DNA of 37,664 bases from Bacillota bacterium (GCA_012719595.1 JAAYAB010000009.1:1-37664), one strand, 5' to 3'. Positions 3,776 to 33,390 are shown, counted from the first letter of the stretch. Notes: generated by a model from the sequence alone, not told the origin. Translations and numbers: made by a program.

Positions 3776-3796
3776 CATAGACAGGAGGCAGTCGCA

Positions 3797-5113: not shown

Positions 5114-5133
5114 AGAGGTTAGCAGGGGAAAGC

Positions 5134-5162
5134 GGCCTGCAGGGCAAGAAGGCTGGCAGGCC
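5134..5162 (+). other. intercistronic stem-loop
   Basis: GGCCTGC (5134-5140) pairs perfectly with GCAGGCC (5156-5162) across a 15-nt loop in the 105-bp gap between the GH101-like and DUF4038 genes. No U-run follows, so it is more likely an mRNA processing or stability element than a terminator. Confidence 0.4.
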
Positions 5163-5218
5163 TGGAGCGAACGATGCATAGGAGAGACTAGCCGAGGTCA
5201 CTTCAGGAGGGTGTACCG

Positions 5219-6853: not shown

Positions 6854-8549
6854 CATCGCTTCAGTTCCATTCAGTCGATATGGTTCGTATCTCGCCGTGT
6901 CTCGCACGTCAGGGCCGTCCGGTAAGGGACTCTATCTCAGGACTGTCCATGGAAGAGCGATTCCCAGTGAGCTGCTGTTGCTTGAGCCGGTACATGATGG
7001 CTCGCCGATGGGCTATGCTGTGTATGCCAATCCCGACGTGCTCCGCCTGGAGTCCTCCTGTGGCTGGGTAGAGATCTGCATTTCGGAGTCCGACGCAGTA
7101 CGTCTCCGGGGCGAGGGTATAGGCCTGCGCCTCAGTGCGGTGACGACACTCATGGATCCTATCATCCCAATAGGTAAGGGCCCTGACTCCTGGCTTCTGA
7201 ATTTCAGGGTAACCCGGGTGAAGCTGCTGGCATCTATGATGACTGGTCAGGTCACAGTGGGTACCTTCGATGGTGCGACCGGCGGAGTCAGTGAGCAGAT
7301 CTGCTTTGCACCAGAGCAACACACGAACCGGTGGGAAGGCTTCCTCGAGGAGTTCAGCGGAGCGTTCACACTGGCTGCTCAGCAGGAGTCGTTTGAGCAG
7401 TGCCGACGCAAGGCCCATGATGAGTTTGCTGATTGGTTAGCCAAGACACCTGAAGTGCGCGACGGAGTGGACGGAGGTGAAGACCTCGCCGTTGCTCGGG
7501 AGCTGGCCGCGTACGTCAACTGGTCAGCGGTAGTGAGGCCATCGGGAATTCTCAGGCGTCCGGCCATGCTCATGTCGAAGAACTGGATGACGAGCGTCTG
7601 GGCATGGGACCACTGCTTCAACGCCATGGCACTCGCCATGGGTAATCCAGAAGCAGCTTGGGATCAGTTTATGCTTCTCTTTGACTATCAAGATGAGAGC
7701 GGTGGGCTCCCAGACGTGGTCAATGATTGCCAGCCCGCGTGGAACTACTGCAAGCCCCCCATCCATGGTTGGGCCCTAAGGTGGATGATGAAGCACTCCG
7801 AAGCAGTGACTGTCGACAGGCTTCTGGAAGCATATGAGCCGCTATGCAGGTGGACCAGGTGGTGGATGAGCCACCGCGATTACAACAGAAACGGATTCGC
7901 AGAATACACCCATGGTAACGACTCAGGATGGGACAACTCAACAGTGTTCCGTCATGGAGCTCCTGTCGAATCGCCCGAACTCTGTGCGTTCTTGGTACTT
8001 CAGATGGAGACCCTGGCCGAGGTCGCGGCCGTTCTTGGGAAGTCTGAAGATGCAGGCGACTGGCGGACCCAGGCTGAGCAACTTCTCAGGTCCACTCTGG
8101 CTAGGTTTTGGCGGGGAGATAGATTCGTCGCAGTCAAGGCATGGGATGGCGGAGATATCGAATCAGACTCGTTATTGCTGTTCGTGCCGCTGGTTCTGGG
8201 AAAGCGGCTTCCTGAGGATGTCAGACAGACATTGGTGCAGCGGCTGGCTACGGGTGGCTGGCTAACCTCCTACGGCCTTGCGACTGAGCTGCCCACGAGC
8301 GAGTACTACGAGGCCGACGGATATTGGCGCGGCCCTATCTGGGCACCATCCACTATGCTAATCGTCGACGGCCTCGTGGATGCGGGTGAGGATGATCTGG
8401 CGTCGGAGATAGCTCAGAGGTTCTGTCACATGGCAGCAGAAGCAGGCATGGCTGAGAACTTCGATGCATTGACAGGCAAAGGCCTCAGAGATCCAGCCTA
8501 TACCTGGACGTCCAGCACATTTCTGGTGCTGGCGGGCATGTACATCTGA
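6840..8549 (+). CDS. GH63/MGH1-like (alpha/alpha)6-barrel glycoside hydrolase, 569 aa
   Basis: A beta-sandwich N-terminal half (about 1-190) precedes an (alpha/alpha)6 barrel. Barrel motifs are WAWDHCFN (254-261), GGLPDVV (288-294), EYTHGNDSGWDNS (355-367), YWRGPIW (495-501) and AENFDALTG near residue 540. This is the pattern of the mannosylglycerate hydrolase-like/GH63 C-terminal domain, related to trehalase and amylo-alpha-1,6-glucosidase. By analogy with characterised GH63 members, D361 in GNDSGWD and E539 in AENF would be the catalytic pair. These are inverting exo-acting alpha-glycosidases. The track begins at ATG 6831, but AGGAGG abuts that codon; the in-frame ATG at 6840 has a 9-nt spacing, so I chose it. 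No leader peptide is present. It is the last gene of the four-gene plus-strand operon. Confidence 0.85.
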   Translation: MVALDIASVPFSRYGSYLAVSRTSGPSGKGLYLRTVHGRAIPSELLLLEPVHDGSPMGYAVYANPDVLRLESSCGWVEICISESDAVRLRGEGIGLRLSAVTTLMDPIIPIGKGPDSWLLNFRVTRVKLLASMMTGQVTVGTFDGATGGVSEQICFAPEQHTNRWEGFLEEFSGAFTLAAQQESFEQCRRKAHDEFADWLAKTPEVRDGVDGGEDLAVARELAAYVNWSAVVRPSGILRRPAMLMSKNWMTSVWAWDHCFNAMALAMGNPEAAWDQFMLLFDYQDESGGLPDVVNDCQPAWNYCKPPIHGWALRWMMKHSEAVTVDRLLEAYEPLCRWTRWWMSHRDYNRNGFAEYTHGNDSGWDNSTVFRHGAPVESPELCAFLVLQMETLAEVAAVLGKSEDAGDWRTQAEQLLRSTLARFWRGDRFVAVKAWDGGDIESDSLLLFVPLVLGKRLPEDVRQTLVQRLATGGWLTSYGLATELPTSEYYEADGYWRGPIWAPSTMLIVDGLVDAGEDDLASEIAQRFCHMAAEAGMAENFDALTGKGLRDPAYTWTSSTFLVLAGMYI

Positions 8550-8698: not shown

Positions 8699-9640
8699 CT
8701 ACTCAACCAGCCCCGTCCTCTCAACGCTCTCGACGAAGTACTTCTGAAGCACTGCGTAGAGTATCAGCACCGGCGCGATGAACATGACCATGGCTGCATT
8801 GCTTACGAAAGACTGGAGCACTTGGTTGGGCTGAAGCCCTGCGTGCTCACGGACGAAGTAGTTGACATACGCGCCCGTAACTCCAAGCATCTTGTTGGGC
8901 AGGAACGACGCATCTTTCAGGTAAAGGCCGGTGTAGAAAATGTCATTCCACTGCCAAACGACCGAAAACAGGAAGACGATCATGAGCCCCGGCTTGGCGT
9001 TTGGCAGCATGACGCTGAAAAACGCACGATAGGGGCTAGCTCCATCGACGTATGCAGCCTCTTCGAGGCTTGACGGCATCCCTCTGAATATCTGGCGCAT
9101 GATGTATATGAACAACCCGTTTCGGAATGCCGTGGCAGTCGACGACGTCAGGATAAACGGCCAGTACGTCCCGATGAGGTTAATCGGCTTATCCAGCAGA
9201 CCAAAGAGGCTGAAGAAACGGAAGTTGAGGAACATCGGTATCATTATTATGTGAGGTGGAATCAGCAAGACGAGGATGATCAACGCAAACACCAGGTTCT
9301 TCAGGGGGAAATCAAACCTCGCGAGTCCGTACCCCACGAGCGTACATGACATCAACTGCAGCACGCCGGTGATCAGCACGAGCATAGTCGACTTGCCGAA
9401 TGCGGTCGGATAGTCCATGCTTCGAAACGCCATCTTATAGTTCTCGAGTGTCGGGTTCCGCGCTATCCACTGGACAGTCCGGTCGAATATATCGCTCTGC
9501 TGCATAACCGATGTAGCTATCTTGCTGGCTATAGGTCGTAGTATGATATACGATACAGCGATTATGACTGCTGTTCTTACGAGGCTCCCCAGTGCCACCT
9601 CAGGTGAGCGCCACCCAGTGAGCCTTTTCAAAGTGCTCAT
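8699..9640 (-). CDS. carbohydrate ABC transporter permease, MalG type
   Basis: This inner-membrane permease of about 313 residues has six predicted hydrophobic segments. The cytoplasmic EAA loop reads EEAAYVDGASPYRAFFSVML, which fits the EAA---G---------I-LP consensus that docks the ATPase. The large loop before it and LEXYXXAFR-like ENYKMAFRSMDY are typical of CUT1 MalG proteins. The track starts at TTG 9646, but AGGAGG is placed 7 nt before the in-frame ATG at 9640, which I prefer. It is the last gene of the minus-strand operon, 23 bp after its partner permease, and forms the second of two permease pairs. Confidence 0.9.
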   Translation of the reverse strand: MSTLKRLTGWRSPEVALGSLVRTAVIIAVSYIILRPIASKIATSVMQQSDIFDRTVQWIARNPTLENYKMAFRSMDYPTAFGKSTMLVLITGVLQLMSCTLVGYGLARFDFPLKNLVFALIILVLLIPPHIIMIPMFLNFRFFSLFGLLDKPINLIGTYWPFILTSSTATAFRNGLFIYIMRQIFRGMPSSLEEAAYVDGASPYRAFFSVMLPNAKPGLMIVFLFSVVWQWNDIFYTGLYLKDASFLPNKMLGVTGAYVNYFVREHAGLQPNQVLQSFVSNAAMVMFIAPVLILYAVLQKYFVESVERTGLVE

Positions 9641-9663
9641 GCCCAATCCTCCTCAGGCCCAGA

Positions 9664-10575
9664 CTACTGCTGATAGAAGACGTGTTTGGATACCAGCTTC
9701 AGGGATAGAGCGAGAACCAATGCTACAGCCGCGAAATACATCCATGCCATGGCCAAGCTGCCTCCGAAACCGGCTCCCGACCACATGTTGGCCTCGACCA
9801 GCCTGATCACACCATTCGTAGGCGCCGTAAACGAGTCGATCATCACATACACGATGTTCGTCGGCAGAAGCGGGGTGATTAGCGGGAAGGTGATCTTCCA
9901 GAAGCTCTCCCAGCTAGTCGCGCCCTCGATGTCCGAAGCTTCGTAGTACGACTGAGGAATCGACTGCAATCCCGCCAAGAAGATGAGAATCGGTATCCCT
10001 GATGCCGACACTATCTGTGGAATGCGATCCACTGCAAAGGCTACGTAGTTGAGCAGATCCTGCGGAAGCCGCATTGCCATCATGAACTGTCTAGCTGCAA
10101 TACCCAGTGTTCCCATCTGCCTCATCTCCTGGAGAGTCTGATCGACTAGTCCTGTGGCATAGTCCACCTCCTCGAGGCGGGTGAGCACTCCGGAAGTGAT
10201 GATCACCGGCAGGAAGAAGATCATCCTCGCCATCGCACGACCTCTGAACTTCTGATTGAGAAGAGCAGCCGCCAAGAAGCTGAAGACCAGGATCAACGGA
10301 AGCTCAGTTAGAGTCTGTGCGATCGTCCCTGTAAAGGTCGGCATAAACGCAGTGTCCACGAGGAGAGCGCGGCGGTAGTTCTCCCACCTGATGAACTCCA
10401 GCTCATATCCATTGGATGTCACTCTGAGCTGGTTGAACGTGAAGACTATCGACTGCACCAGAGGATAGAGGCAGAAAAGGAGGAAACCTATTACGAACGG
10501 CGATATAAACACCAGTCCGGCTATGGCCCTTCGACGCTTGATGGACATTCGAAAGATCCTCTTGTCAGTGCGCAT
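9664..10575 (-). CDS. carbohydrate ABC transporter permease, MalF type, with enlarged extracytoplasmic loop
   Basis: The protein has 303 residues, with an N-terminal GLVFISPFVIGFLLFCLYPL first membrane segment and an EAA loop YYEASDIEGATSWESFWKIT followed by FPLITP. Between FFLPVIITSGV and the next membrane segment (ASGIPILIFLAGLQSI) lies an insertion of about 60 residues (RLEEVDYATGLVDQT...), longer than in ordinary MalF/UgpA permeases. From memory, this insertion is also found in permeases that accompany DUF5696 and YIP1 genes in other bacteria. Its start overlaps the end of the DUF5696 gene by 11 bp, showing translational coupling. AGGGGGT lies 7 nt upstream of the ATG. It pairs with the MalG-type gene downstream. 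Confidence 0.88.
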   Translation of the reverse strand: MRTDKRIFRMSIKRRRAIAGLVFISPFVIGFLLFCLYPLVQSIVFTFNQLRVTSNGYELEFIRWENYRRALLVDTAFMPTFTGTIAQTLTELPLILVFSFLAAALLNQKFRGRAMARMIFFLPVIITSGVLTRLEEVDYATGLVDQTLQEMRQMGTLGIAARQFMMAMRLPQDLLNYVAFAVDRIPQIVSASGIPILIFLAGLQSIPQSYYEASDIEGATSWESFWKITFPLITPLLPTNIVYVMIDSFTAPTNGVIRLVEANMWSGAGFGGSLAMAWMYFAAVALVLALSLKLVSKHVFYQQ

Positions 10576-13279
10576 CGTGGTTACCCCCTTGATACACTGC
10601 GAAATCCATGGCCGCCACCCTCACATCGCCGATAACCACATCCTTGCGACCGTAGTTGACCAGTACTCTCGTTCCATCCTCGTATGTCGTTTCGTAGACG
10701 TCGTCCATTACCTTTCTATGGCCCACTATCCGCTGGTCTTGCACCTGTCCTAGCAGTGCGTTGACCTGTTCGTACAGTTGCGCCGCCTCTTCCAGCCAGT
10801 CACGATATCCAGCACCGAACAGGTAATTGAAAGGAGTGTCCTTCACCACTGATGGGCTGCTAAAGAAGAGCTCATAATGGAGACTGGCTCCAGCCTCGAC
10901 GGATTGGAGGATGCTTCGTCTGTAGTCACCCGCCAAGTTCACTGGCTCGCCAGCATAGGGTATGTAGCCGTGCAGCACGATCGGATAGAAGGGAACGCTT
11001 TCATCCAGAAGGTTACTGGAGGAACAGCTCAGGGGCATATCTACTACCACGTCTGCGTATGGCAAAGCATACGCATTCACGCCGCTCAACATGAGGCTCA
11101 TCCCTGAGTCTACGCGTAGACGCTTGAGCTGCTCTTCCATGATCTGTCTCGACTGCTGCCTGTCAATGAGCAACTGAGGATCTTCCCTGAAATCCGAGCT
11201 AAGTTGCTGTCCGAGGAACCTAGGTGAAAGGGCATCGATACCATACCCGCGATAGCTGGGCAGGAAACTGTCAATCAGGTCATCGACAAGCCCAGGAGAC
11301 AGCACGTATCGGCCCATCCCATCGTCATCGATGGTAGCTACCATTCGATCGGGACGCCTAGCTGATGAGCCTGAGACTGTGAAACCATCGAACAGGCTAG
11401 TCACATAGACGTTGATCAGACTGATATCCGGATAGAAACTCATTCCTCTAGCTTTGAGATAGTCCCTCAGTCTGTCGAATTCTGCTCGTCCGCCAAGTAC
11501 TGGCTCCAGATGTACCTTGCTTGGGTAGTAATGGCGAATGCCCCCCTTGGTCCAGCCCAGGTACTCTAGCTGGATGTTGCTTACCCCTGCAGCACTCAGC
11601 TCCTCCACAATCTGAATGGCCTGCTCATAGGTGGTCACCGGCACAGCTATGTTGCGAACGATGCCGAAAACAGAGCGCCTGGCAGTGATGGCTCCTACCA
11701 CCTGAAGGAAGAAGGGGAGATCTTTGCTGACTGGCTTTTTCGTCAGTGCTCCGCGCTCTAGCAGGTAACTTTGGTAGTGATGGGCCATCCCCACGTAGTC
11801 GGCGTTCTCGCCTTCCAAGAAGGCGTATCGAACTCTGATATCTCCTTGATACATTCGGCTCTGATAAACGTTGATCTGGGCGGCTCCCCATCCTTCATGC
11901 CCTGTCGTCTTTGCGATGGACGTCTTGCCATTGGGAGTGACAGTGAACGCCCCATAGACTGACTTGAAGCTGCTGGATACATCGGCGACAATTCGGGCCA
12001 GGGCGTCGCCATCCTCGATGATGGCGAAGAACGCGGAATCGCCTCTCTTCAATCCGAAAACCGGAAGATATGCCTGCACCTTTTCGGCCGCATCCTTGAC
12101 CGGATCTACCAATCGTTTCTGCCACGCAGGGCCAATATCGAGATTGGCCATATCGAGGCCGTAGACCCTTATCCCGTACTTCGATGCCCCCGCCCGATCG
12201 ACGAAGCGGAGCAGAGCGCCGGGGCCATCTGGCACGAAGGCATAGCCTTGCTCTTCCTTGGTTCCGCAACCGAAATACGGAAGAACGTTGATCTCCGACA
12301 AGGGAAGGTGGGTCGCTTTGACTTTGAACGCCGCACTCGATCGAGTTATCCATGCTTCCTGATCTACGAAGGGATATGTAACATCCGACACTGGTATCCT
12401 GACTACGAAATCGTCTCCATCTATGGCATATTCGATAGACACGCCGAAGACCTCGAGGCTGCGGCTGGGTCCTTTCAACCCATATCTCTCATGCTCCTCG
12501 GTGACACTCTGAGGGGTGAATCCCGCTGATTTGAACGCCTTTATGACTCGGTTTAGTGTAAAGGCCGGTATATCGTTCATCACATAGGTAGGCGTATCGA
12601 CGAGGCCCCTGATATGGCCCAGCGTCACAGCCTCGGTACTAGGAACGCCGTCGCTCCAATCTCTCACATAGCGCAGGAGAGCCCAGAGGGCAGTTGTCGT
12701 CTTTGCCTTGGGGTCAGATGAGACGACCTTGTATGGTCCTAGCAGCTTCTCAATGTTCAGCCCAGAGATCTCCACTGGAGGTTCAGATCCCCGATCCACC
12801 AGACTGATCTCTGTGTAAGCGTCGAGCACCGCCTTCTGATCAGAGCTGCTCAGCTGCGAAATGACTTCATTCATCCGCTCAGCGGAGATGACCACTGGGA
12901 CATAGTCTGCGTCCTTCCACTCTCGTCCGATCCTATAGTCGACACGGACGCCTCCGTCGATGTCTGTCACCTCAAACTGGCCATACGGTACACTGTCCTT
13001 GCTGGTGTTCATGACTAAGAGCTCGTCGACCTGATTCCAATAGGAGATCGACAGGGCAGGCTGCCCTGGAGGGTTCGAGTACCAGGTACGACCGGTTCTC
13101 TTATCGTGGACGGCCACGTCCGTGTTTGTGCGATCGATATAGAGGGCGAGTGTATCGCCCTCTGCAACCATATCCATGCTCGCTAACCTTGCATCGACTG
13201 GCTGCTGGGCAGCGGCGGAGCGGCCTGCCAAAGCCAAGATGACAAGCACCATGAAGAGGATCCTCTTGCGGACGCCCAT
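10565..13279 (-). CDS. secreted DUF5696 domain protein, glycosidase-like, 904 aa
   Basis: A clear signal peptide (RKRILFMVLVILALAGRSAAAQ) is followed by an N-terminal half rich in beta structure (about 30-500; GRTWYSNPPGQ, ALLRFVDRAGASKYGIRVYG). The C-terminal half resembles a TIM barrel (about 530-850): NIQLEYLGWTKGGIRHYYPS, GMSFYPDISLINVY, GYGIDALSPRFLGQQLSSDF and SGVNAYALPYADVVVDMPL. The end, YETTYEDGTRVLVNYGRKDV, is the small sandwich commonly found after glycosidase barrels. The layout matches DUF5696 proteins that sit beside sugar ABC transporters. The overall shape is glycosidase-like, but I know of no biochemical proof and no catalytic residue can be assigned. With SPase I cleavage after the AAA region it should act in the periplasm or outside. 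ATG 13279 has GGAGGG 9 nt upstream. It lies between YIP1 and the second permease pair. Confidence 0.82.
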   Translation of the reverse strand: MGVRKRILFMVLVILALAGRSAAAQQPVDARLASMDMVAEGDTLALYIDRTNTDVAVHDKRTGRTWYSNPPGQPALSISYWNQVDELLVMNTSKDSVPYGQFEVTDIDGGVRVDYRIGREWKDADYVPVVISAERMNEVISQLSSSDQKAVLDAYTEISLVDRGSEPPVEISGLNIEKLLGPYKVVSSDPKAKTTTALWALLRYVRDWSDGVPSTEAVTLGHIRGLVDTPTYVMNDIPAFTLNRVIKAFKSAGFTPQSVTEEHERYGLKGPSRSLEVFGVSIEYAIDGDDFVVRIPVSDVTYPFVDQEAWITRSSAAFKVKATHLPLSEINVLPYFGCGTKEEQGYAFVPDGPGALLRFVDRAGASKYGIRVYGLDMANLDIGPAWQKRLVDPVKDAAEKVQAYLPVFGLKRGDSAFFAIIEDGDALARIVADVSSSFKSVYGAFTVTPNGKTSIAKTTGHEGWGAAQINVYQSRMYQGDIRVRYAFLEGENADYVGMAHHYQSYLLERGALTKKPVSKDLPFFLQVVGAITARRSVFGIVRNIAVPVTTYEQAIQIVEELSAAGVSNIQLEYLGWTKGGIRHYYPSKVHLEPVLGGRAEFDRLRDYLKARGMSFYPDISLINVYVTSLFDGFTVSGSSARRPDRMVATIDDDGMGRYVLSPGLVDDLIDSFLPSYRGYGIDALSPRFLGQQLSSDFREDPQLLIDRQQSRQIMEEQLKRLRVDSGMSLMLSGVNAYALPYADVVVDMPLSCSSSNLLDESVPFYPIVLHGYIPYAGEPVNLAGDYRRSILQSVEAGASLHYELFFSSPSVVKDTPFNYLFGAGYRDWLEEAAQLYEQVNALLGQVQDQRIVGHRKVMDDVYETTYEDGTRVLVNYGRKDVVIGDVRVAAMDFAVYQGGNHDAH

Positions 13280-13294
13280 ACCAATCCACCCTCC

Positions 13295-15493
13295 CTACAA
13301 CCTGAATGTGATCTCTCTGTAGATGCCAGAGAGCAGACCCACCATTTCTCCGCATACGCTGAAGAGCGTAAGGGCGATGAACAGGAACGTACCTATACCG
13401 ACCACCGTAACCGCTCCGGTCAGGAGCGTCTTGACCCCGCTATACTCATGCACGTTCATCATCCCAAAGAAGAGAAGGATGATTGACCAGATCAACGATC
13501 CGACTATCATGATGTGATAGTAGGTCCCCTCTTGCAGAGTCATGTAGTTCGACAAAAACGTAGCCGGAAGGCACAGGAGTATCACCGGTGTCAGAGCGTA
13601 GGCAGTCGTGACGTACACGTCCTTGAGTGTCCCCTTTCCGTCGGTAAGGGTAGTCAAGGCCCAGTTCACGACCACCCACAGTCCAAACGGCACCAGTACG
13701 CTCATGATCTCCACACCCAGATTGAGCCTGGATACATCGTGATAGGTGAAAAGAAAGCCTGAATACTGACGCAGGTAGATGTATGTGGCTACGACCAGTG
13801 CAAGGATGACCGTGGCTCCTGACGCATTGCCCCTCTTCTCATGCTTGAGATCCCAGAATCCGTCCATGGGATGGAAAATCACGTATAGTGCATAGCTCAC
13901 GCAGGCGTATGTCTGAGCTGCCCAGGCCAGGACTTCACGGGCAGCTCTTGCGGTTCTCCCCTCGCCGCGGCGGAGCCAGAGAGTAGCTCGCTGTGCCGAT
14001 GCGCTCCTTCGAAGGGGATCGAGCAGCCATCTTCGGATAAGGGTCCCCCCATGATACCTCTTCGCCAGCGACGTGGCTATGACCAACAGAACGAAGCCAG
14101 TCATGATCATGCTGAAGTGATCGGTGATGGTGTCTGCTCGGTACTTCGAATACGCATATGAGTAGTCTTTTCTGTTGTACCCAAGTCTGAAGTTGGCCAT
14201 AGCTTCGACGTATCTTGCCTGACGAAGCAACGATCTTCCGATGCCGCTGTACGCCTGGTCATAGTTGACGTTGAAGCGCAAGACAGTCTCCCAGGCGTCA
14301 GCCGACAACTCATACTCTCCCATTTCGTAGAGCTCTATGGCTGCGTGAATCGCCCTCTGGTATTCCGTAGGGCCGAAAAGCGTGAGCTTCGATGACCGTC
14401 TGTCCAGGACCAAGATATCGTTCCCCAGACTATCGATGGCCACCGGATCGCGGAAGGCGCCTATGGAGTCACCGATGGTGCCGAACGTATATAGGAGATT
14501 CCCGTTGGAATCGTAGGTAAAGACCCGGCCGTGCGATGATAGGGCGCTGTAGATCCCCACCTCTCTGGCAGCGATATCCACCCACGTAGTTCCGCCAGCA
14601 GTGAGGGTGACGATCCCCTGTTCTCGGCTTACAGAGCTGACCACAAAATCCCCTATGGGATCGAAGAAGCCGTTTCTGACCAGCACGTCACTTCCGCCCG
14701 GATTCAGCCGCTTGATTTCTGAGGCTGTCGCCGCCATCATGAAACCCTCGTGGTCTATGTCGAGCGTGACATACTCGACAGGCAGGATCAGGGCCGATTG
14801 CTCACGCTGCTCCTTGGTGAACAGCCTACGCCAAAAGATCTCCGCTACGCTGGGCGTGACCTTTGGGGCGCCGACAAACCCCTGGAAATTCCCCTTCTGA
14901 TCGAACTCGAGCAGGCCGTCATAGGCATCAAGGGACACCACATAGATCTGGCCCAGCGGGTTGACTACCACCTTGATTGGCCTGTATTGGAAGTTCGCGG
15001 GCAGGATTCCCTCAGTCTTGGGACTCGGGGGTCCGTAAATCCTCAAGAGGTTTCCATGCCTATCGAGGATCACCAGCCGCGCATTCCCGGTGTCAGCGAC
15101 GTAGATCTCCCCTTCGTCTGTCACGAAGAGACCCCTTGGGTTCCTGAACCTGTCGGCACTGCCGGAGTTGTCAAACTCGGAAATCACCCGCACAAGGCTG
15201 CCATCCTCGGTCAGACACAGTATGCGACTGTTGCCCGTGTCCAGGACATAGATCGTCCTATCGCTCCCAACGACGATATCCTGGGGATCCTTTAGGGCGC
15301 CCGCTCCCACGCTGTTCAAATCCAGTACCCTCAAGGGCACGTAGGCCTGAGGAGCCGGCACGGCTTCTCCCCAGATGTTGTAAGTGTAGCTCGGATATGG
15401 TATACCGGCGCAGGTCGGCGCGGCGGTGCCAACAGTCAATGCCGAGAGCGAGAGCAAGGTAATCGCAATCAACTTGTTGATCGATAGACGCAC
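13295..15493 (-). CDS. NHL-propeller/TPR/Yip1 multidomain membrane protein, 732 aa
   Basis: A signal sequence or anchor (LIAITLLSLSALTVGTAAPT) precedes repeated NHL/six-bladed propeller motifs between about 50 and 390: DPQDIVVGSDRTIYVLDTGN, NPRGLFVTDEGEIYVADTGN and DPVAIDSLGNDILVLDRRSS. A TPR-like stretch (about 395-460, AIELYEMGEYELSADAWETV) comes next, then a membrane helix (about 468-490) and a five-helix C-terminal Yip1 domain (about 560-725). Topology suggests an extracytoplasmic propeller tethered to a polytopic domain. Propellers of this kind bind glycans or proteins, TPRs bind partners, and bacterial Yip1 function is unknown. The start is GTG 15493 with GAGGTG about 7 nt upstream. It lies 32 bp after one permease and 15 bp before DUF5696, strongly implying that it works with the transporter. 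Confidence 0.85.
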   Translation of the reverse strand: MRLSINKLIAITLLSLSALTVGTAAPTCAGIPYPSYTYNIWGEAVPAPQAYVPLRVLDLNSVGAGALKDPQDIVVGSDRTIYVLDTGNSRILCLTEDGSLVRVISEFDNSGSADRFRNPRGLFVTDEGEIYVADTGNARLVILDRHGNLLRIYGPPSPKTEGILPANFQYRPIKVVVNPLGQIYVVSLDAYDGLLEFDQKGNFQGFVGAPKVTPSVAEIFWRRLFTKEQREQSALILPVEYVTLDIDHEGFMMAATASEIKRLNPGGSDVLVRNGFFDPIGDFVVSSVSREQGIVTLTAGGTTWVDIAAREVGIYSALSSHGRVFTYDSNGNLLYTFGTIGDSIGAFRDPVAIDSLGNDILVLDRRSSKLTLFGPTEYQRAIHAAIELYEMGEYELSADAWETVLRFNVNYDQAYSGIGRSLLRQARYVEAMANFRLGYNRKDYSYAYSKYRADTITDHFSMIMTGFVLLVIATSLAKRYHGGTLIRRWLLDPLRRSASAQRATLWLRRGEGRTARAAREVLAWAAQTYACVSYALYVIFHPMDGFWDLKHEKRGNASGATVILALVVATYIYLRQYSGFLFTYHDVSRLNLGVEIMSVLVPFGLWVVVNWALTTLTDGKGTLKDVYVTTAYALTPVILLCLPATFLSNYMTLQEGTYYHIMIVGSLIWSIILLFFGMMNVHEYSGVKTLLTGAVTVVGIGTFLFIALTLFSVCGEMVGLLSGIYREITFRL

Positions 15494-15524
15494 TACCGTT
15501 CACCTCTTCTAAGCTATCGGCATC

Positions 15525-16385
15525 CTAGTCGATACCAGATGTTGCCATGGTCTGGACTACCTTAGTCTGATTTACTACGAAAACGACTATCGGTACGGTC
15601 ATCATCACAAGCGCAACCGCATATGTCACACCCGCTCGTCCGATACCTCCTGCAGCTATCTGACGCAACGCGTATGGCAAGGGCTTCAGCTGCTCTGCAT
15701 ACAGCACGTTGTCCCCTGTCACTCCCCAAAGGTGTTGGAATGCCAAGATCAGCATCGTCAACCATGCCGGCTTGACAAGGGGCATCGCTACCTTCCAGAA
15801 GATCTGCAGCTCCGTAGCCCCATCAAGCCTCGCTGCCTCTAGGTACGTGTCCGGTATCATGGTGTCCATGAAGTTCCTCATCAGGTATAGACCTAGAGTC
15901 GATCCCCAAGTCGGCACTATGACTCCCCAGTACGTATTGATGAATCCCAGGTACGACAGGGTCAAGTAGTTTGGGATCGCCACCACCGGCGAGGCGAACA
16001 TCAGCGACAGCAGTATCATGTCATTGACGAGCTTCTTGCCGGGGAACTTATGCTTCGACAGCACGTAGGCTGCCAACGAGCCGAAGATGATGTTTCCTGC
16101 CAGTCCCAGCAACACGATGATTACCGAGTTCAGTAGATATCTCGAGATCGGCACCCACGACTTGCCCATCAGGATCAGGAGATCACTGAAATTCTTGAGG
16201 GTCGGGTTTCTGACCAGGAACTGAGGTGGAAACAAGAACAGCTCGTTCATCGGTTTGAACGCACTGCTGATCACAAATACCAGAGGAAGCGCTGAGAAAG
16301 CTGCCCCCGCCGCCAGCATCGTCAGGATCACCATATCTCCGCCAGTGGAACGCGATAGCCTTTTTCTGCAGATCTGGATCTTCAC
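15525..16385 (-). CDS. carbohydrate ABC transporter permease, MalG type
   Basis: The protein has 286 residues with about six membrane segments. The EAA loop YLEAARLDGATELQIFWKVA followed by MPLVKP is a textbook ATPase-contact motif of CUT1 permeases, and NPTLKNFSDLL is the MalG-type region after the first helix. The start is GTG 16385 with AGGAGG 10 nt upstream. It is separated from the preceding MalF-type gene by a 189-bp gap carrying a tandem repeat array, unusually wide for a permease pair that must be made in equal amounts. It is the partner of 16575-17546. Confidence 0.88.
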   Translation of the reverse strand: MKIQICRKRLSRSTGGDMVILTMLAAGAAFSALPLVFVISSAFKPMNELFLFPPQFLVRNPTLKNFSDLLILMGKSWVPISRYLLNSVIIVLLGLAGNIIFGSLAAYVLSKHKFPGKKLVNDMILLSLMFASPVVAIPNYLTLSYLGFINTYWGVIVPTWGSTLGLYLMRNFMDTMIPDTYLEAARLDGATELQIFWKVAMPLVKPAWLTMLILAFQHLWGVTGDNVLYAEQLKPLPYALRQIAAGGIGRAGVTYAVALVMMTVPIVVFVVNQTKVVQTMATSGID

Positions 16386-16424
16386 GAGCCCAGCACCTCC
16401 TACGTGCCAATACCAACCCGTCGG

Positions 16425-16581
16425 CGGACCTCCGACACTTCGGACTCCCAGTCCTTCCGACTGGCGACCTCTCGCACTGCCAGCTCTTCCAGCTCTTAGC
16501 TCCTCAAGCAGCTGGCCCTTCGGACCCCGGCCCCTCGGGCTGCTAGCCCTTCGGACTCCTAGCCCATCAGACTGTTAGCCC
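16425..16581 (-). repeat. about ten tandem copies of a degenerate 16-bp repeat
   Basis: Read on the minus strand, the gap after the MalF-type permease splits into consecutive 16-base units: gggctaacagtctgat, gggctaggagtccgaa, gggctagcagcccgag, gggccggggtccgaa (15), gggccagctgcttgag, gagctaagagctggaa, gagctggcagtgcgag, aggtcgccagtcggaa, ggactgggagtccgaa and a partial tenth. Consensus is roughly GGGCTAGSAGTCCGAA. The first unit includes the TAA stop of the upstream permease. The 16-bp period is not a multiple of three, so the array is not coding. It is transcribed between two permease genes and may fold or be a neutral expansion. Confidence 0.8.
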
Positions 16582-17546
16582 AGTTTTCTCAGCAAGCTCT
16601 GTACTCCCCTCTGCGCTGCCAGCATTCCGAAGAAGAGCACTACTGCTATAGCGCAGGCATACCCCATTTCGAATCGGACGCTTCCATAGTCGTTCAGGTG
16701 CTGCATGATGGTCCAAGTATGCCAGTCCGTCGGGGTAGGTCCTGTGAGCATCTGTATGTTGCTTGCTGCCATGAACGATCCAGTGATTGACATGATAGCC
16801 CCGAACATCAGATAGTTCTTCATCATCGGCAACGTCACGAACCACAGCTCCTGCCACCGGTTCTTCACCCCGTCCAGGGCAGCTGCTTCGAAGTAGTAGT
16901 CATCTATACCCTGCAAACCCGCTATGAAAACCAGGAAGCTCACTCCCAGGCTCATCCACAGACTCACTACTATGACCACCGGCCACATCCAGGTGGTGTC
17001 GACCAGCCACTGTATCGGCTGGGTGATGACCCCCAGGTAGAGCAGAATCGCATTCAGGTATCCATAGCTGTCTCCGCTGAATATGAAGATCCACACCACA
17101 GCCGCTGTCCCAGATATCGACGGCGCATAGAAGAGCAGTGTCAGTATCGCCCTGATCCAAGGTTTCAGCTCGTTGATCAACCACGCGAACAGGAAACACA
17201 GGATGTAGCTGACCGGTCCGGTCACCAGTGCGAAAAACAGCGTGTTCTTTACCGCTATGAGGAAGACTTCATCCTTCAGAAAGAGCCTCAGGTAGTTCTC
17301 CCACCCCACCCACCGGGGGAAGTTCAGCATGTTGAAATAAGTGAAGCTCAACACTATTGACAGTATGACCGGCAATACCGTGAAGGTGAAGAACAGGATC
17401 AAGAACGGTGCCAGGAACAGATACGACATCCTGTTGGCCTTGATCTCACGCCATAGGCCCTTTATCCGTGGGACTGCGGGGACTGCAGCTGCCGCAGCAA
17501 AGGGTGCGGCGACCCCCGTACTACCCTCAGGGGCGATAGAGCTCAT
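16575..17546 (-). CDS. sugar ABC transporter permease, MalF type
   Basis: This inner-membrane protein of about 323 residues has a low-complexity Ala/Pro-rich cytosolic head (GVAAPFAAAAAVPAVPRI), then SYLFLAPFLILFFTFTVLPV as first membrane segment and an EAA-like loop YFEAAALDGVKNRWQELWFV. The track begins at TTG 17579, overlapping the previous stop by 3 nt, but GGAGGT sits 6 nt before the in-frame ATG at 17546, a much better start. The stop lies inside the first unit of the tandem repeat array. It forms the first permease pair with 15525-16385 and follows the large solute-binding protein gene. Confidence 0.88.
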   Translation of the reverse strand: MSSIAPEGSTGVAAPFAAAAAVPAVPRIKGLWREIKANRMSYLFLAPFLILFFTFTVLPVILSIVLSFTYFNMLNFPRWVGWENYLRLFLKDEVFLIAVKNTLFFALVTGPVSYILCFLFAWLINELKPWIRAILTLLFYAPSISGTAAVVWIFIFSGDSYGYLNAILLYLGVITQPIQWLVDTTWMWPVVIVVSLWMSLGVSFLVFIAGLQGIDDYYFEAAALDGVKNRWQELWFVTLPMMKNYLMFGAIMSITGSFMAASNIQMLTGPTPTDWHTWTIMQHLNDYGSVRFEMGYACAIAVVLFFGMLAAQRGVQSLLRKLG

Positions 17547-17575
17547 TCCACTACCTCCATTCAGCAGTCGATCAA

Positions 17576-20500
17576 TCAATTACGCCAGGTTTGTGGTCTC
17601 AAGTCTCTCTCGGCATCCAGCCTGTGCAGATGGACGTAATGATCCCAATACGCCTTCTTCCACTCCTCAGGTACATCTTCCAGGTTGGTCTCGTATCCAA
17701 ACTCTAGGCGCTTTCGGGCTATCTCCTCATTGATCATACGATCGTAGTCAACCACAGACTCCCTCACAGGCTTGCCATCCAGCACCACTGCCCTAAAGAG
17801 CCAGTCGAACATCCTGGTGACGTAGTATCCTCCCAGCACCGGCGGGGTCCCCTCTACCCACTTCCACTGCTCCAGCAAGACCGCTCGCTCACTCGAACCC
17901 CATGGCAGCTGCTCGAGCGCCTCCATGTTGGCCGTCGGATACCTCGCTGCCGCTCCCATGAGCGCCTCCAGCTCCCGACCAAACCTGGCCTGGGTGTCTG
18001 CCCTGGTCCACCACTTCAGAAACTCCCACGCAGCCTCTTTCTTTTTTGACCCCTCCAGGATGATCGCTCCGGAACTGCCCGCCGGCACCACCCTGCTGAT
18101 GGTTCCATCTTCTCTCACTGTCCCTGGCACAAGCGCTATTCCCCACTCGCCTCGCAGCTCAGGGGCGAAGACCTTGATCTGGTTGTAGAATCCGTAGTCG
18201 CCGATCACCAGCGGCATTTCTCCCATCCGGAATCTGTTCGCTGCATTGAACTCCAGTGGGAACTCATATAGCCTGTACAGGTCCGTCAACTGCTTCAGGG
18301 TGGCTATGGCTAGCTCAGAGTCCAGGTTCGTAGCCACCATATCCTCCTTGTAGAGAGGCACCCCCTTCTGATACAGCAGCATCAGATACGTGCCCATAGT
18401 GGGCGAGAGTCCAATCTGCATGTAGTTCCTCTGCAGCTCCGGAACCATTCTATACACGTCGTCCCAGGTCTGGGGCACTTCAAGGCCCAGTTCCGCCAGG
18501 ACATCTTTTCTGTAGAAAAGCACCGGGAACGGATGGGTCTCCGGCAGTCCATACACCTTGTCCCGTATCCTCATCGAGGTGAAAGCTGACTTGGAGAATC
18601 TCTGAGCTACTTCCTCGAAATCCTCGAACTGACGAAGGTCTGCTATAGCTCCTCTGAAGGCCAGGTCCATGTTGAGGGCCCCGAGCGCCACATCGGGAGC
18701 CGTGCCTGCTATAATCGCAGGTATCAGAAGTGACCCTGTATCCGAGATCAGCTCCAGGTTCACTTGTATACCCGTCTCAGGGGTGAACGTATCCTCGATC
18801 ATCTGCTTCAGAATCTGGGCCTGGTCTCTGCCGGCTCCGCCGCCACCGCCCACATAGGTGCTTTGGCCAATCCAAACCTTGATCGCCTCATCAGATGTCT
18901 CCTGTTCACCTGAACCGCCGTCAGCACTAGTGCTGATGTCGTGCACTCCGGTATAGTCATGGGTAAACGATGCGGCTAGAGCGCTGAGCTCATGCCTCAC
19001 CAGCTGCCAGAAGGTCGGCGATGCGCTCGGCAGTTTCTGGTCCGGCGAAGCCACCACGATGTAGTCGATCTGCAGCGGTTGGTTGCGGGAGTTCTGCATC
19101 CACTCGCCCAGCGAACCAACGCTGTCTCTATAGGTAGCGAAGTGACTGGGGATGAGGTCCGGCCTGGCAGACATGTTCCTCAGCAGTCTCGCGAAGTCTC
19201 TAAGGAAGGTAGTGTGGCCTCCCTGCTGGCCAGTGACCGTCTCGAACGCCAAAGCTAGATCAGTCAGCTCCTGGCTCGCAGCCTGCAGCGACTCTACCAG
19301 ACCGGGGATCCTCTTCTCCAGCTGATAGCTTCGGAGAGGGTCAGGGTTGGCCGACGTAACCATCATGATTGTTCTGTAGATGGTAGTCAGTTGATAGAGC
19401 ACGTTCTCAGTCCGCTCCAGGATGTGAGCCAGATCTCCGAGGGTGACCTCGAGTCTCATAACGTGCTTTCCTCTGGTCAGATAGACGAGAGCGGGATTCC
19501 CGTACTCATCTGTGAGAGGGACCATGGAGTAACGATCGGTGAATGAGAACTTGATCGCCTCTGCCTCACTGAACGGCACCTTGCCGTCGATCATCATCTT
19601 GCGGCTGCTGTAAGAACCCCGGACCAGGTCCTGCTTGCCCTTGATAGCTATCTGGTAAAGCCCATCCTCTGGCACTTCGAACTCCCACTCCACCCACTCC
19701 CCGGTCAGCTGCCATCTGAAGCCTCCGATGGAGTTCAGCCTGACCTGGGCAGGATGGTATGGTTCCAGAGAAGGATCCCCCTTGTCGAACTCGGCGAATA
19801 TCCCGATGGCAGATCTGCGGACGGCGTTCTCTCCCTGAATCTTCTGAAGAACTCCAGTGGTCGGCTTATACCCTAGTTCCATGTACTCCTGAGCAACGAC
19901 CCTATAGGGCCTGGCCGCCTCCGCCTGCTCCAACCGCAATTCCGATATTGCTATGGGCTCGGACAGCGAATCTATACGAATCACATTGACGCCTTCTTGC
20001 AGGTAGAAGCTATAGGGCTGAAGCTCGTACCCGACAGGGTCCGTGATGTAGACAGTCTGCCACTCCGGCCTCTCCACCTGTCTCGGGCGGACATCGTTTC
20101 CCGCTGTATCCTTTCGGACCGGGCCGGAGTCTCCCCAGACCCTCTGAAAGCTCAGGAATTGAGTCCCCTCAAAAAGCCTGTCGCCGTTGATGGTCAAAGC
20201 CCTCTCGATGGCAATGCCTCTCCCGGGCAGGGGGTAATAAGTCAGGGCGATGTTGTAGAGTCCGGCTTCCGGCACATTGACCTGCCACTCTATGTATCCG
20301 CCCTCATCGGTGCGAACTACACTGCCGGACAACCCTCCAAGCTCCTCAACGATGGTGACCCCCTCGCCGGACGTGTACGATACTGCCGGCACTATGACCT
20401 TGATGTTCGGGCGCGGTGCTCCCGCGTACTGTGCGAGGTAGTCGTCATACGCGATCTGCCGCTCGTAAAAGGTGGCCACATCCTCGAGGGCGTCTGATGT

Positions 20501-20623
20501 GGCGACATCGTCCAAAGCGTCTGCGGTAGCGAGGCCTTCCATTGCGCCGAACACTACCAGCACAAGACCGATGACAGCGGTGATAAGCATCCTAGGATGG
20601 ACAACGGTAGCGTGCCTCATCAT
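17576..20623 (-). CDS. extracellular solute-binding protein (family 1) with N-terminal carbohydrate-binding-like domains, 1015 aa
   Basis: A leader (LITAVIGLVLVVFGAMEGLATA) without lipobox cysteine is followed by two similar beta-sandwich segments. The first (about 80-240) contains GYIEWQVNVPEAGLYNIALT, and the second (about 270-420) contains WVEWEFEVPEDGLYQIAIKG. Both resemble sugar-binding CBM/galactose-binding-like modules. A helical linker (about 420-570) leads to a complete family 1 binding protein (about 585-1000): SLLIPAIIAGTAPDVALGAL, YGLPETHPFPVLFYRKDVL and GSSGAIILEGSKKKEAAWEF. Normal family members have about 420 residues. I infer that it captures long or branched glycan at the membrane and hands it to the permease pair. 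Just after the leader, DALDDVAT is repeated as DALEDVAT, mirrored by a 24-nt DNA duplication. GGGGAG lies 5 nt before the ATG. Confidence 0.87.
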   Translation of the reverse strand: MMRHATVVHPRMLITAVIGLVLVVFGAMEGLATADALDDVATSDALEDVATFYERQIAYDDYLAQYAGAPRPNIKVIVPAVSYTSGEGVTIVEELGGLSGSVVRTDEGGYIEWQVNVPEAGLYNIALTYYPLPGRGIAIERALTINGDRLFEGTQFLSFQRVWGDSGPVRKDTAGNDVRPRQVERPEWQTVYITDPVGYELQPYSFYLQEGVNVIRIDSLSEPIAISELRLEQAEAARPYRVVAQEYMELGYKPTTGVLQKIQGENAVRRSAIGIFAEFDKGDPSLEPYHPAQVRLNSIGGFRWQLTGEWVEWEFEVPEDGLYQIAIKGKQDLVRGSYSSRKMMIDGKVPFSEAEAIKFSFTDRYSMVPLTDEYGNPALVYLTRGKHVMRLEVTLGDLAHILERTENVLYQLTTIYRTIMMVTSANPDPLRSYQLEKRIPGLVESLQAASQELTDLALAFETVTGQQGGHTTFLRDFARLLRNMSARPDLIPSHFATYRDSVGSLGEWMQNSRNQPLQIDYIVVASPDQKLPSASPTFWQLVRHELSALAASFTHDYTGVHDISTSADGGSGEQETSDEAIKVWIGQSTYVGGGGGAGRDQAQILKQMIEDTFTPETGIQVNLELISDTGSLLIPAIIAGTAPDVALGALNMDLAFRGAIADLRQFEDFEEVAQRFSKSAFTSMRIRDKVYGLPETHPFPVLFYRKDVLAELGLEVPQTWDDVYRMVPELQRNYMQIGLSPTMGTYLMLLYQKGVPLYKEDMVATNLDSELAIATLKQLTDLYRLYEFPLEFNAANRFRMGEMPLVIGDYGFYNQIKVFAPELRGEWGIALVPGTVREDGTISRVVPAGSSGAIILEGSKKKEAAWEFLKWWTRADTQARFGRELEALMGAAARYPTANMEALEQLPWGSSERAVLLEQWKWVEGTPPVLGGYYVTRMFDWLFRAVVLDGKPVRESVVDYDRMINEEIARKRLEFGYETNLEDVPEEWKKAYWDHYVHLHRLDAERDLRPQTWRN

Positions 20624-20685
20624 CTCAACTCCCCGGAAACAGAACGCTGGACCACCACACCCGACATCTCAACCTTGCTAAGACA

Positions 20686-20732
20686 GAGTTGCCCTCAGCC
20701 GAGCATCACTACTCTTTGCCGAGGGCAAACTC
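20686..20732 (-). other. intercistronic stem-loop between the two binding-protein genes
   Basis: GAGTTGCCCTC (20686-20696) pairs with GAGGGCA(A)ACTC (20721-20732), 11 bp with one bulged A, around a 24-nt loop. Two further palindromes (GTCATG/CATGAC and TCATCGATGA) follow toward the stop of the upstream gene. There is no U-run. In binding-protein operons such hairpins typically protect the upstream message and lower expression of downstream permeases; that role is inferred here. Confidence 0.55.
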
Positions 20733-20809
20733 ATTTTCAGTAGTTGCACGCCGTCATGGACGAATCGGTCTCATCATGACCGGGTCTGTGTCATCGATGA
20801 CTGATTGAC

Positions 20810-22141
20810 TCAGTTGAACTCCTCGTCCAGCATGGCCTGAACTACTGGTGCCTTGGCATTGAGCCCGGCAGCTGGGCTGGCCATATCGACATCGCTCAAA
20901 ACGCCGAAGTAGTGCATAGAAGCATGAGCATCGACCTTCGAGTCGACGAGCTTCATCATCTCCAGAGTCTCTTCGTCTCTGATGTTGAACTTAGCCGCCC
21001 ACGCCATCCAAGCATCTTCGAGACCAGTCTCAGGATCTATGTAAGGCACGGTGAGCTTGAACAGGGCATTGGCTACTTCTATCTTCGCTCTGGGGTTCTT
21101 GACACCCTTCGGGATGATGAGCCCGAACATACGAGATCCGTCAATGGCGTAGTCATCTGAGTAGATGCTGTCAACATTCGGTCCCATCGGAGGAGGAACT
21201 ACGCCGAAGTCGTCCTCGATTTCGAAGACGATTGGATAGTCGAGCATCTCGACGTGCTCAACCATCCTCATGGCGATTTTGCCCTGCTTCCAAACTGAGT
21301 GATTCTCATGGAAGCCCTGGGGAGCCATGGCCTCGCCTATGTTCAAGATCTCATTGGCAATGCGGACACCCTCGATGAAGGCTGGCTCATTGGCGGTGTA
21401 TACCAGCTTCCCATCGATCTCACGCACGGCGCGTCCGCCATTGGTTGCGATCGGAGGAATCTGCCCCTCAGGAATCCAGAATCCCCACTGATCGATCTCG
21501 CCATCGCCGTCCGTATCCTTGGTGGCCAGGTTGGCGATCTCAATCATCTTGTCCCATGTCCACTCGTTGTTCTCGACTAGCTCATAGAGGTTGGGCAGGC
21601 CCTCTCTCTCGAAGAGGGTCTTGTTCCACATGACGACACGGCATGCCGCCGGCAGCAGCTGAGCAGGGAATAGGACAGTCTGTCTACCGAACTTCGCCCA
21701 CTTCTCCGGATTCTGAGCCAAGCCGATATTGGGATATCTCTGCCAGAACCCTTCCTCAACGAACTCTTCAGCCGGAGTGGAGAACTCAACGAATCCGAAT
21801 CCCTTCATGAAGGAGCTATGCCAGATCAGGATATCGTTAGGCTCGTCACCGGCGAGGATCGCTTGCTTCTCCTCATCAGATGCAGGCCAGGCCTTGGGAT
21901 TCTTGAACTCGATCTTGCAGTTGAACATCTTCTCGACTTCTTCTTTCCACGCCTTGCCTTCGCCATCCTGGAACTGACCAAAGAACAACTGATACCATCC
22001 ATCCCAACCTACGACGAACGACACAGTTTCTCCACCGAGGTCGAATTTCGGATACTCCTCTGCCTGGACAAGTGCGGCCATCGACGTCACAAGAATTACG
22101 CACAGCCCAATGGTGACAATTCTTCTCAGAGATCCTCCCAT
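20810..22141 (-). CDS. extracellular solute-binding protein, sugar ABC transporter, 443 aa
   Basis: A signal peptide (RRIVTIGLCVILVTSMAALVQA) ends at an A-x-A-like site without a lipobox cysteine. The mature protein has normal family 1 length. Features include NDILIWHSSFMKGFGFVEF, VVMWNKTLFEREGLPNLYEL, NEWTWDKMIEIANLATKDTD and a calcium-loop-like DTDGDGEIDQWGFW. Aromatic residues in the N-terminal GWDGWYQLFF and later WGFW suit sugar stacking. It is the first gene of the minus-strand operon and probably the most highly expressed; AGGAGG lies 10 nt before the ATG. Two binding proteins with two permease pairs suggest either two importers or one system with alternative receptors. No ATPase gene accompanies them. 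Confidence 0.88.
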   Translation of the reverse strand: MGGSLRRIVTIGLCVILVTSMAALVQAEEYPKFDLGGETVSFVVGWDGWYQLFFGQFQDGEGKAWKEEVEKMFNCKIEFKNPKAWPASDEEKQAILAGDEPNDILIWHSSFMKGFGFVEFSTPAEEFVEEGFWQRYPNIGLAQNPEKWAKFGRQTVLFPAQLLPAACRVVMWNKTLFEREGLPNLYELVENNEWTWDKMIEIANLATKDTDGDGEIDQWGFWIPEGQIPPIATNGGRAVREIDGKLVYTANEPAFIEGVRIANEILNIGEAMAPQGFHENHSVWKQGKIAMRMVEHVEMLDYPIVFEIEDDFGVVPPPMGPNVDSIYSDDYAIDGSRMFGLIIPKGVKNPRAKIEVANALFKLTVPYIDPETGLEDAWMAWAAKFNIRDEETLEMMKLVDSKVDAHASMHYFGVLSDVDMASPAAGLNAKAPVVQAMLDEEFN

Positions 22142-22231
22142 TGTGTAAATGCCTCCTTCCTTTCCGTCCGCTCACTGGTAGCCGAGATCGCATCCACCAG
22201 CAACCGATAGTACCCAAATACTAGGCTCCGT

Positions 22232-22272
22232 CGCGAAATCCTGCTGACTTCGCGGATTTTTTTCTTTTTTTG
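22232..22272 (+). terminator. intrinsic terminator-like hairpin with T-tract in a divergent promoter region
   Basis: CGCGAA (22232-22237) and TTCGCG (22249-22254) form a perfect 6-bp stem around an 11-nt loop. It is followed within 2 nt by TTTTTTTCTTTTTTT, so it reads as a rho-independent terminator for rightward transcription. No rightward gene precedes it, because all genes to the left for 13 kb run leftward. It could stop antisense transcription, act as an attenuator in a long leader of the DUF362 gene, or simply be an operator palindrome plus an A-tract UP element for the leftward promoter. Confidence 0.55.
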
Positions 22273-22304
22273 TTCGGCAACATGAAAATTGCCGGTCCGA
22301 AATG

Positions 22305-22313
22305 TGGTAGAAT
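22305..22313 (+). promoter_or_regulatory. candidate extended -10 promoter of the DUF362 operon
   Basis: TGGTAGAAT matches an extended -10 element (TGn plus a five-of-six TATAAT) about 36 bp before the ATG at 22349. The -35 position is poor (AAAATT), as is common for extended -10 promoters. Transcription from here would begin downstream of the terminator-like hairpin. Confidence 0.35.
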
Positions 22314-22348
22314 GAGTGTGTAACCAACAGTCCGTGGAGGTGCTCTGC

Positions 22349-28465: not shown

Positions 28466-28517
28466 AGCCTGACTGCCCAGTGGGTGGAAAAGCTGAACGC
28501 CGCCTGATTTCTTTCAT

Positions 28518-28539
28518 CTAGCGACAGCAAAAACGCTAG
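28518..28539. other. stem-loop after the GH101-like gene
   Basis: CTAGCG (28518-28523) pairs with CGCTAG (28534-28539) around a 10-nt A-rich loop, about 50 bp after the stop at 28465. No T-run follows on the plus strand, so it may end the message by a rho-assisted route or protect its 3' end. The remaining gap to 28673 holds no gene that I can support. Confidence 0.35.
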
Positions 28540-28673
28540 CGGAGGAGTCGGCATGGCGCCTTTATTGCACCGGTCAGCTTCTCTCAACGGCATATCCGTG
28601 CTACGAAAACGCAGCTGATCTTGGCATGGCAGCTCAGTAACAGCCGCGAGGAGATCAAGAATCTGTTTTTCAC

Positions 28674-28696
28674 ACTTTCATAGCATATACGAAAGT
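28674..28696. promoter_or_regulatory. palindromic candidate operator of the sugar-phosphate operon
   Basis: ACTTTC (28674-28679) and GAAAGT (28691-28696) form a perfect inverted repeat with an 11-bp spacer, ending 5 bp before the -35 element of the promoter at 28702-28730. The position suits a regulator dimer. The RpiR-type protein encoded as the last gene of this operon is the obvious candidate, by analogy with autoregulated RpiR operons. Confidence 0.5.
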
Positions 28697-28701
28697 TTAT
28701 C

Positions 28702-28730
28702 TTCCATTCTGACACATCCAGTGTTATAAT
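28702..28730 (+). promoter_or_regulatory. sigma-A-type promoter, TTCCAT-N17-TATAAT with extended -10
   Basis: A perfect TATAAT (28725-28730) is preceded by TGT, making an extended -10, and lies 17 bp after TTCCAT (three of six matches to TTGACA). Transcription would start near 28737, leaving a leader of only about a dozen bases before the GTG at 28749. It is the clearest promoter in the window. Confidence 0.65.
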
Positions 28731-28748
28731 ACAGAGACGGAAGGCAAG

Positions 28749-29363: not shown

Positions 29364-29385
29364 GAAGAAGGAACGGGTTAGTTTC

Positions 29386-30423: not shown

Positions 30424-30465
30424 CCCTGTGCCAGCTGAACTCGGACAGACAGGGAGCGGTTGGAC

Positions 30466-31752: not shown

Positions 31753-31781
31753 TGCGGATGCCATAGTGCTAGAGGAGGGAT

Positions 31782-33290: not shown

Positions 33291-33390
33291 CGTTGATCGG
33301 TTGTCGTCGACGTGCGACCATCAGCCGAGTGAGCAGCATGAAAGCTCCGGCTGGGATCGAAGCCGTGTTTAGCGGCCTGGAGGGATCTCG

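Follow-up and report, generated by a model that had tools for sequence, protein, structure and literature searches.

Conserved Yip1-DUF5696 cassettes with dedicated CUT1 permeases: a candidate glycan-uptake system in Bacillota

The window analyzed here is a stretch of 37,664 nucleotides from a Bacillota bacterium (GCA_012719595.1, JAAYAB010000009.1:1-37664). Its minus strand carries a cassette of eight genes, running from position 22141 down to 8699 in the order SBP1-bSBP-B1-B2-NHL/TPR/Yip1-DUF5696-A1-A2, which a first-pass annotation had proposed to be an undescribed glycan-uptake system composed of two ABC importers; its gene list, strand, order and coordinates all hold. SBP1 (20810-22141) encodes a small solute-binding protein (SBP) of 443 residues, and bSBP (17576-20623) a giant SBP of 1015 residues. 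B1 (16575-17579) and B2 (15525-16385) encode one pair of CUT1 permeases, and A1 (9664-10575) and A2 (8699-9646) a second pair. Between the two pairs lie the genes for an NHL-TPR-Yip1 protein of 732 residues (13295-15493) and for a DUF5696 protein of 904 residues (10565-13279). The genes had been described as coupled by overlaps, which is true of bSBP/B1 (4 bp) and DUF5696/A1 (11 bp) but not of SBP1/bSBP and B1/B2, which are separated by 186 and 189 bp, respectively; the remaining core gaps are 15-31 bp. Across loci, core neighbor pairs overlap or lie no more than 40 bp apart in 91-100% of cases. The 189 bases between B1 and B2 (16386-16574) contain repeated GGAGTCCGAAGGGCT-like units, and relatives are almost gapless at this position. 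A promoter scan of the window yielded matches at the level of shuffled sequence, and none in the intergenic region 22142-22315.

The arrangement is found in many other genomes. Scanning species genomes with a Yip1 alignment identified 80 loci in Paenibacillus, Clostridia, Halanaerobiales, Limnochordia and one metagenome-assembled genome labeled Dictyoglomus, and the order bSBP-B1-B2-Yip1-DUF5696-A1-A2 was present in nearly all of those not cut by a contig end; a few runs appeared without B1 or B2, which may be losses in the picking of open reading frames (ORFs). The same gene order recurs in approximately 90 further loci, and one complete Paenibacillus genome holds nine copies. In a reverse scan that started from DUF5696 in seven genomes, G023 included, Yip1 was directly upstream in 27 of 28 runs, the last being cut by a contig end, and A1 was directly downstream in all 28. 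Six of these genomes were themselves first identified from Yip1 loci, and the unbiased test is that of 300 genomes of the phylum, in which full-length NHL-TPR-Yip1 and DUF5696 proteins were found in an identical set of 25; one further genome (G249) showed only a partial propeller match of 207 bits. DUF5696 is carried by 15 of 216 genera. The probability of the identical pattern, 1/C(300,25) or about 5e-37, assumes that the genomes are independent, which they are not. The first-pass annotation had noted that YIP1 and DUF5696 genes accompany CUT1 permeases in other bacteria; far from being rare and random, the linkage is that of a fixed unit.

All four permeases of the window score above the Pfam BPD_transp_1 cut-off, giving two permeases for each CUT1 pump, and all possess the EAA signature of ATPase coupling (for example, EAAALDGV...LP in B1, EAARLDGA...MP in B2 and EAAYVDGA...LP in A2). 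The signature is kept in 108 of 113 B1, 106 of 109 B2, 115 of 118 A1 and 96 of 116 A2 proteins. In their textbook form, CUT1 importers consist of one SBP, two permeases and two copies of an ATPase. No ATPase is encoded in the operon, and three full-length UgpC/MsiK-like ATPases, candidates for driving the pumps, are encoded on other contigs of the genome. In this the cassette resembles CUT1 importers that share an ATPase (maltose MalEFGK2, UgpABCE and those served by MsiK/MsmX), in which an SBP and two BPD_transp_1 permeases with the EAA signature are likewise encoded in an operon lacking the ATPase gene, with UgpC-like ATPases elsewhere in the genome. It differs from them in having two permease pairs per operon, permease families of its own and two obligate accessory genes.

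On sequence comparison, the cassette permeases are dedicated families. They mostly score 200-530 bits with the cassette models, as opposed to no more than 168 bits for other permeases in the same stretches, a gap that arises partly by construction because cassette members served to build the models. The exceptions are a displaced B2 (locus L163) and an orphan A1-A2 pair of the cassette family on contig C304 of the source genome (L047:1620-3477), which has no adjoining Yip1 or DUF5696 gene. The distance matrices of the permeases and the accessory proteins are correlated, with coefficients of 0.74-0.90 for 94 full cassettes and 0.87-0.94 for 14 cassettes from two related genomes; 0-1 of 500 permutations reach such values. 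Because the 14-cassette comparison is largely among paralogues, the co-evolution is not just a matter of species phylogeny. One could still suppose that the genes are adjacent by coincidence, or that each of them simply occurs often in the vicinity of sugar importers, given how frequent CUT1 operons are in genomes of this type. We rejected this explanation, to which we assign a negligible probability, in view of the identical phyletic pattern, the fixed order, the dedicated permeases and the concordant distance matrices.

The source genome, a 3-Mb assembly in 313 contigs, contains 22 matches to PF18952, the Pfam family of DUF5696, at about 20 places and a similar number of NHL-TPR-Yip1 paralogues. 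The run Yip1-DUF5696-A1-A2 recurs on its contigs, and the number of cassettes is about 18-22, which is approximate because several copies are cut by contig ends. Most Yip1 paralogues are 41-47% identical to the window copy, and most DUF5696 paralogues 32-41%. Individual copies depart from the common form. On contig C250 (L053, 138-1044), an extra ORF of 263 residues separates Yip1 from DUF5696, a position at which no other inserted gene was seen; on C150 (L041, 25001-43362), the run SBP-Yip1-DUF5696-A1-A2 has a bSBP gene downstream of it but no B1-B2; and on C81 (L038:15518-18298), the DUF5696 gene is split into two ORFs by an in-frame TAG, with another TAG in the adjoining Yip1 gene, possibly through assembly error or decay.

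The first-pass annotation had proposed a composite machine serving two importers. B1-B2 are, however, absent from at least nine copies in the source genome and from four in the genome G001, while Yip1-DUF5696-A1-A2 remain, and an obligate double importer was rejected on these grounds. Where the contig continues, A1 always lies directly 3' of DUF5696, and no cassette-type B1-B2 pair was seen without the core genes. Comparison of the loci thus identifies NHL-TPR-Yip1, DUF5696 and A1-A2 as the obligate core. In a tree of 61 Yip1 proteins, the form containing B occurs on all deep branches, and B is missing only within one clade, consisting of the family of the window protein and its near relatives; presence or absence of B requires two to three changes on this tree, as compared with about 14 when the labels are shuffled. 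Because B is found on all deep branches and its loss in one clade, the double importer, with bSBP-B1-B2 included, is most simply taken as the ancestral state, from which a dispensable B would have been partly lost in the source lineage.

The first of the two accessory proteins has a signal peptide, an NHL propeller, a TPR region and a single transmembrane (TM) helix with positive charge after it; a variable linker then leads to a Yip1 domain of five TM helices. Pfam detects NHL (E 4e-17) and Yip1 (E 3e-16; 60.2 bits against a curated cut-off of 28.6), both above the curated cut-offs, and matches in the PDB back the propeller and TPR parts. The five predicted TM segments of the Yip1 domain lie within residues 556-713. 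From the signal peptide and the TM prediction, the propeller and the TPR region should face the cell exterior, so that the extracytoplasmic propeller of the first-pass annotation is borne out as a prediction. In many relatives, NHL-TPR and Yip1 are two separate genes. The protein resembles the Yip1 domain family (the YIPF proteins of the eukaryotic Golgi) in its above-cut-off Pfam match and its five predicted TM helices, but differs in that an extracytoplasmic NHL propeller and TPR region are joined to Yip1 by fusion or linkage, and in that it is encoded in a sugar-importer operon. The eukaryotic members have a known role in membrane trafficking, and there are no grounds for expecting such a role in bacteria.

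A signal peptide, an outside propeller and TPR region, a TM helix and a variable cytoplasmic linker are also what one might expect of a substrate sensor. Under this hypothesis, NHL-TPR-Yip1 and DUF5696 would bind glycan outside and signal inward to gate the pumps or induce the locus, without delivering substrate; two-component kinases and regulators do lie beside some cassettes. However, the protein has no cytoplasmic signaling domain, the linker is its least conserved part (mean 0.13; the propeller, TPR and Yip1 domains average 0.46-0.51), and the regulators vary between loci whereas the core is constant. We think that a sensor is quite improbable.

The DUF5696 protein of the window matches PF18952 with an E value of 3e-178, and its secretion, which had been proposed earlier, stands as a prediction. 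Its AlphaFold model (predicted local distance difference test score, pLDDT, 89) has its top Foldseek matches in glycoside hydrolase family 129 (GH129) and GH129-like proteins (E 1e-22 to 3e-30), followed by GH101, and sequence profiles agree with this fold (profile E 3e-12). Like GH129 (NagBb), the GH129-like 3,6-anhydro-D-galactosidase ZGAL_3152 and GH101, it consists of an N-terminal beta-sandwich, a TIM barrel and a C-terminal beta domain. It differs from them in that the catalytic Asp and Glu positions are not conserved, identity is 12-13%, and it is always tied to Yip1 and permeases. The mutated residues of the solved GH101 complexes are Asp764 and Glu796, according to the titles of the structure entries. 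A profile alignment with the GH101-like protein encoded in the window, taken together with predicted strands, places the catalytic sites at DUF5696 positions 688 and about 732; this is a distant alignment, and a smaller one put the nucleophile one column earlier. A search of the phylum for GH129/GH101 relatives that could sharpen it returned none but the two proteins of the window. At these columns the window protein has Phe688 and Ser732. Among 117 family members, column 688 is Asp in 57, Glu in 6 and non-acidic in 54, column 732 is acidic in 36, and both are acidic in 18.

Because the aligned catalytic acids are not conserved, a hydrolase of the GH129/GH101 kind seems improbable; a plain enzyme of these families is disfavored, and we conclude with moderate confidence that DUF5696 mostly binds glycans rather than cutting them. 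The term "glycosidase-like" is therefore apt for the fold and not for the catalytic residues of the window copy. Alternatively, DUF5696 might represent a new family of active glycosidases, exo- or endo-acting, that use other catalytic residues, such as Asp696 and Glu795, and trim oligosaccharides at the membrane for the A importer, with NHL-Yip1 serving mainly as the anchor. The clear GH129/GH101 fold is in keeping with this alternative, as is the retention of Asp696 in 105 of 117 members and of Glu795 in 106, and ZGAL_3152 is active although it keeps just one of the two GH129 catalytic residues, the Asp (PMC5698469). Yet the Asp that GH101, GH129 and ZGAL_3152 have in common aligns with column 688, the position occupied by Phe in the window copy and lacking an acid in 54 of 117 members, and the predicted strand of the window protein ends at 687, nine residues short of Asp696. 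We consider an active glycosidase unlikely, if less so than a sensor.

Both SBPs match sugar-binding SBPs, as expected of a CUT1 importer. SBP1 has a signal peptide and no lipobox, has no Pfam match, and is matched by phmmer to the arabino-oligosaccharide-binding protein 6rjy (E 2.6e-10); its paralogues adjoin other cassettes. The bSBP protein (AlphaFold model, pLDDT 88) has an N-terminal hydrophobic helix, two beta-sandwich domains resembling carbohydrate-binding module family 35 (CBM35), a helical linker and a C-terminal SBP domain (SBP_bac_1, E 2e-26). The second beta-sandwich, residues ~281-404 of the family profile, matches the CBM35-bearing part of 5x7g (E 9e-9), and by profile and fold matches the SBP domain closely resembles proteins that bind beta-1,2-glucan and cyclic glucans. 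The smaller SBP sits at either end of the cassette across loci. A lipobox is present in none of 14 small SBPs from the source genome and G001, versus 34 of 45 in other loci (L061-L140), which may reflect a different cell envelope. In many cassettes of the Paenibacillus type (L096-L138), a co-directional gene of ~370-390 residues precedes bSBP.

The cassette is flanked by plus-strand genes, whose link to it is drawn from the neighborhood. At 1616-8549 lie the locus-specific enzymes, namely a beta-helix protein, a GH101-like protein, an apiosidase-like protein and an MGH1-like glycosidase, identified by Pfam, and Pfam also detects a rhamnogalacturonase/epimerase-like neighbor in the window. The divergent genes at 22316-34278 encode DUF362, a pectate-lyase-like beta-helix protein, a second GH101-like protein, SIS, an alcohol dehydrogenase, a DRL oxidoreductase, an FGGY kinase and an RpiR regulator (all by Pfam except SIS, which was read from the sequence). 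The two GH101-like proteins (3797-5113 and 25835-28465) are the sole PF12905 matches among 120 genomes of the phylum. The row from SIS to RpiR (28749-34278), which adjoins an apiosidase-like protein, resembles an operon for breaking down an unusual sugar. The apiosidase-like, rhamnogalacturonase/epimerase-like, GH101-like and FGGY kinase neighbors, together with the match of SBP1 to an arabino-oligosaccharide receptor, hint at a glycan of pectic side chains as the substrate of the window copy, but this is guesswork.

Across loci, the genes beside the cassettes include GH10, 26, 3, 32, 43, 130, 2 and 20, LacI regulators and two-component genes, so that transporter genes stand beside glycoside hydrolases and regulators, as in polysaccharide-utilization loci. 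The hydrolase neighbors support the proposed role in glycan uptake. Because the neighbors differ at each copy in the source genome (GH20, GH43, GH2, GH130, LacI regulators and others), the cassette is suggestive of a generic uptake module with variable substrate.

That the cassette is a dedicated, co-inherited unit with a role in glycan acquisition appears well supported by these comparisons. The best explanation as a whole, to which we give a probability of roughly one half, is that NHL-TPR-Yip1 and DUF5696 constitute a surface docking platform that feeds CUT1 importers. The TM helix and the Yip1 domain would keep the propeller and TPR region on the external surface of the membrane; propeller, TPR region and the secreted, mostly non-catalytic DUF5696 protein would together form the platform on or beside the permeases. 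Locus-specific hydrolases would release oligosaccharides or polysaccharide ends, which the CBM35-fused SBP and DUF5696 would grip and hand to the SBP-fed CUT1 pumps, which would draw their energy from a shared ATPase of the UgpC/MsiK type with its gene elsewhere in the genome. The platform would be generic and the substrate would vary between copies, much as with SusC/SusD pairs, although this is an analogy only. Like SusC/SusD in the polysaccharide-utilization loci of Bacteroidota, the cassette would be a generic uptake unit present in many copies per genome beside differing hydrolases and regulators; unlike them, its uptake is by ABC pumps, and no homology to SusC/SusD was seen in its proteins. 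We infer the docking mechanism, the substrate handover and the physical complex. Several points weigh against this interpretation: the physical complex is hypothetical, the docking role of NHL-TPR-Yip1 is guessed from its architecture, about half of the DUF5696 family retains an acid at column 688, and the ~90% conservation of Asp696 and Glu795 would allow these two residues to act as a catalytic pair at a shifted site.

The proposal that the system is undescribed agrees with the open-access literature, a search that left most subscription papers and all bioRxiv preprints outside. No paper mentioning DUF5696 by name was found in it, nor any, judged by title and abstract, that is relevant to Yip1 with sugar importers. 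No open-access paper connected Yip1 with Caldicellulosiruptor or with polysaccharide utilization loci, and papers on Paenibacillus JDR-2 and GH161 do not mention Yip1 or NHL.

The cassette is at least a candidate CUT1 importer variant, and a new composite machine is the possible upside. An obligate extra protein pair that has co-evolved with dedicated permeases, in Bacillota and in a genome labeled Dictyoglomus, would point to a major glycan-uptake route with uncharacterized subunits; bacterial Yip1 domains and DUF5696 would gain a concrete, testable function, and the cassette would mark many unnoticed glycan-utilization loci. Tentatively, and with somewhat less confidence than in the docking platform itself, we propose a new class of multi-subunit glycan importer, in which NHL-TPR-Yip1 and the pseudo-glycosidase DUF5696 would be integral to a CUT1 pump, ancestrally to two, and large or chain-end glycans would be gripped outside and handed or threaded in. 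If this is true, Bacillota would possess a widespread counterpart of SusCD. The cassette looks like an undescribed route for the uptake of plant and other glycans by bacteria of the Gram-positive type.

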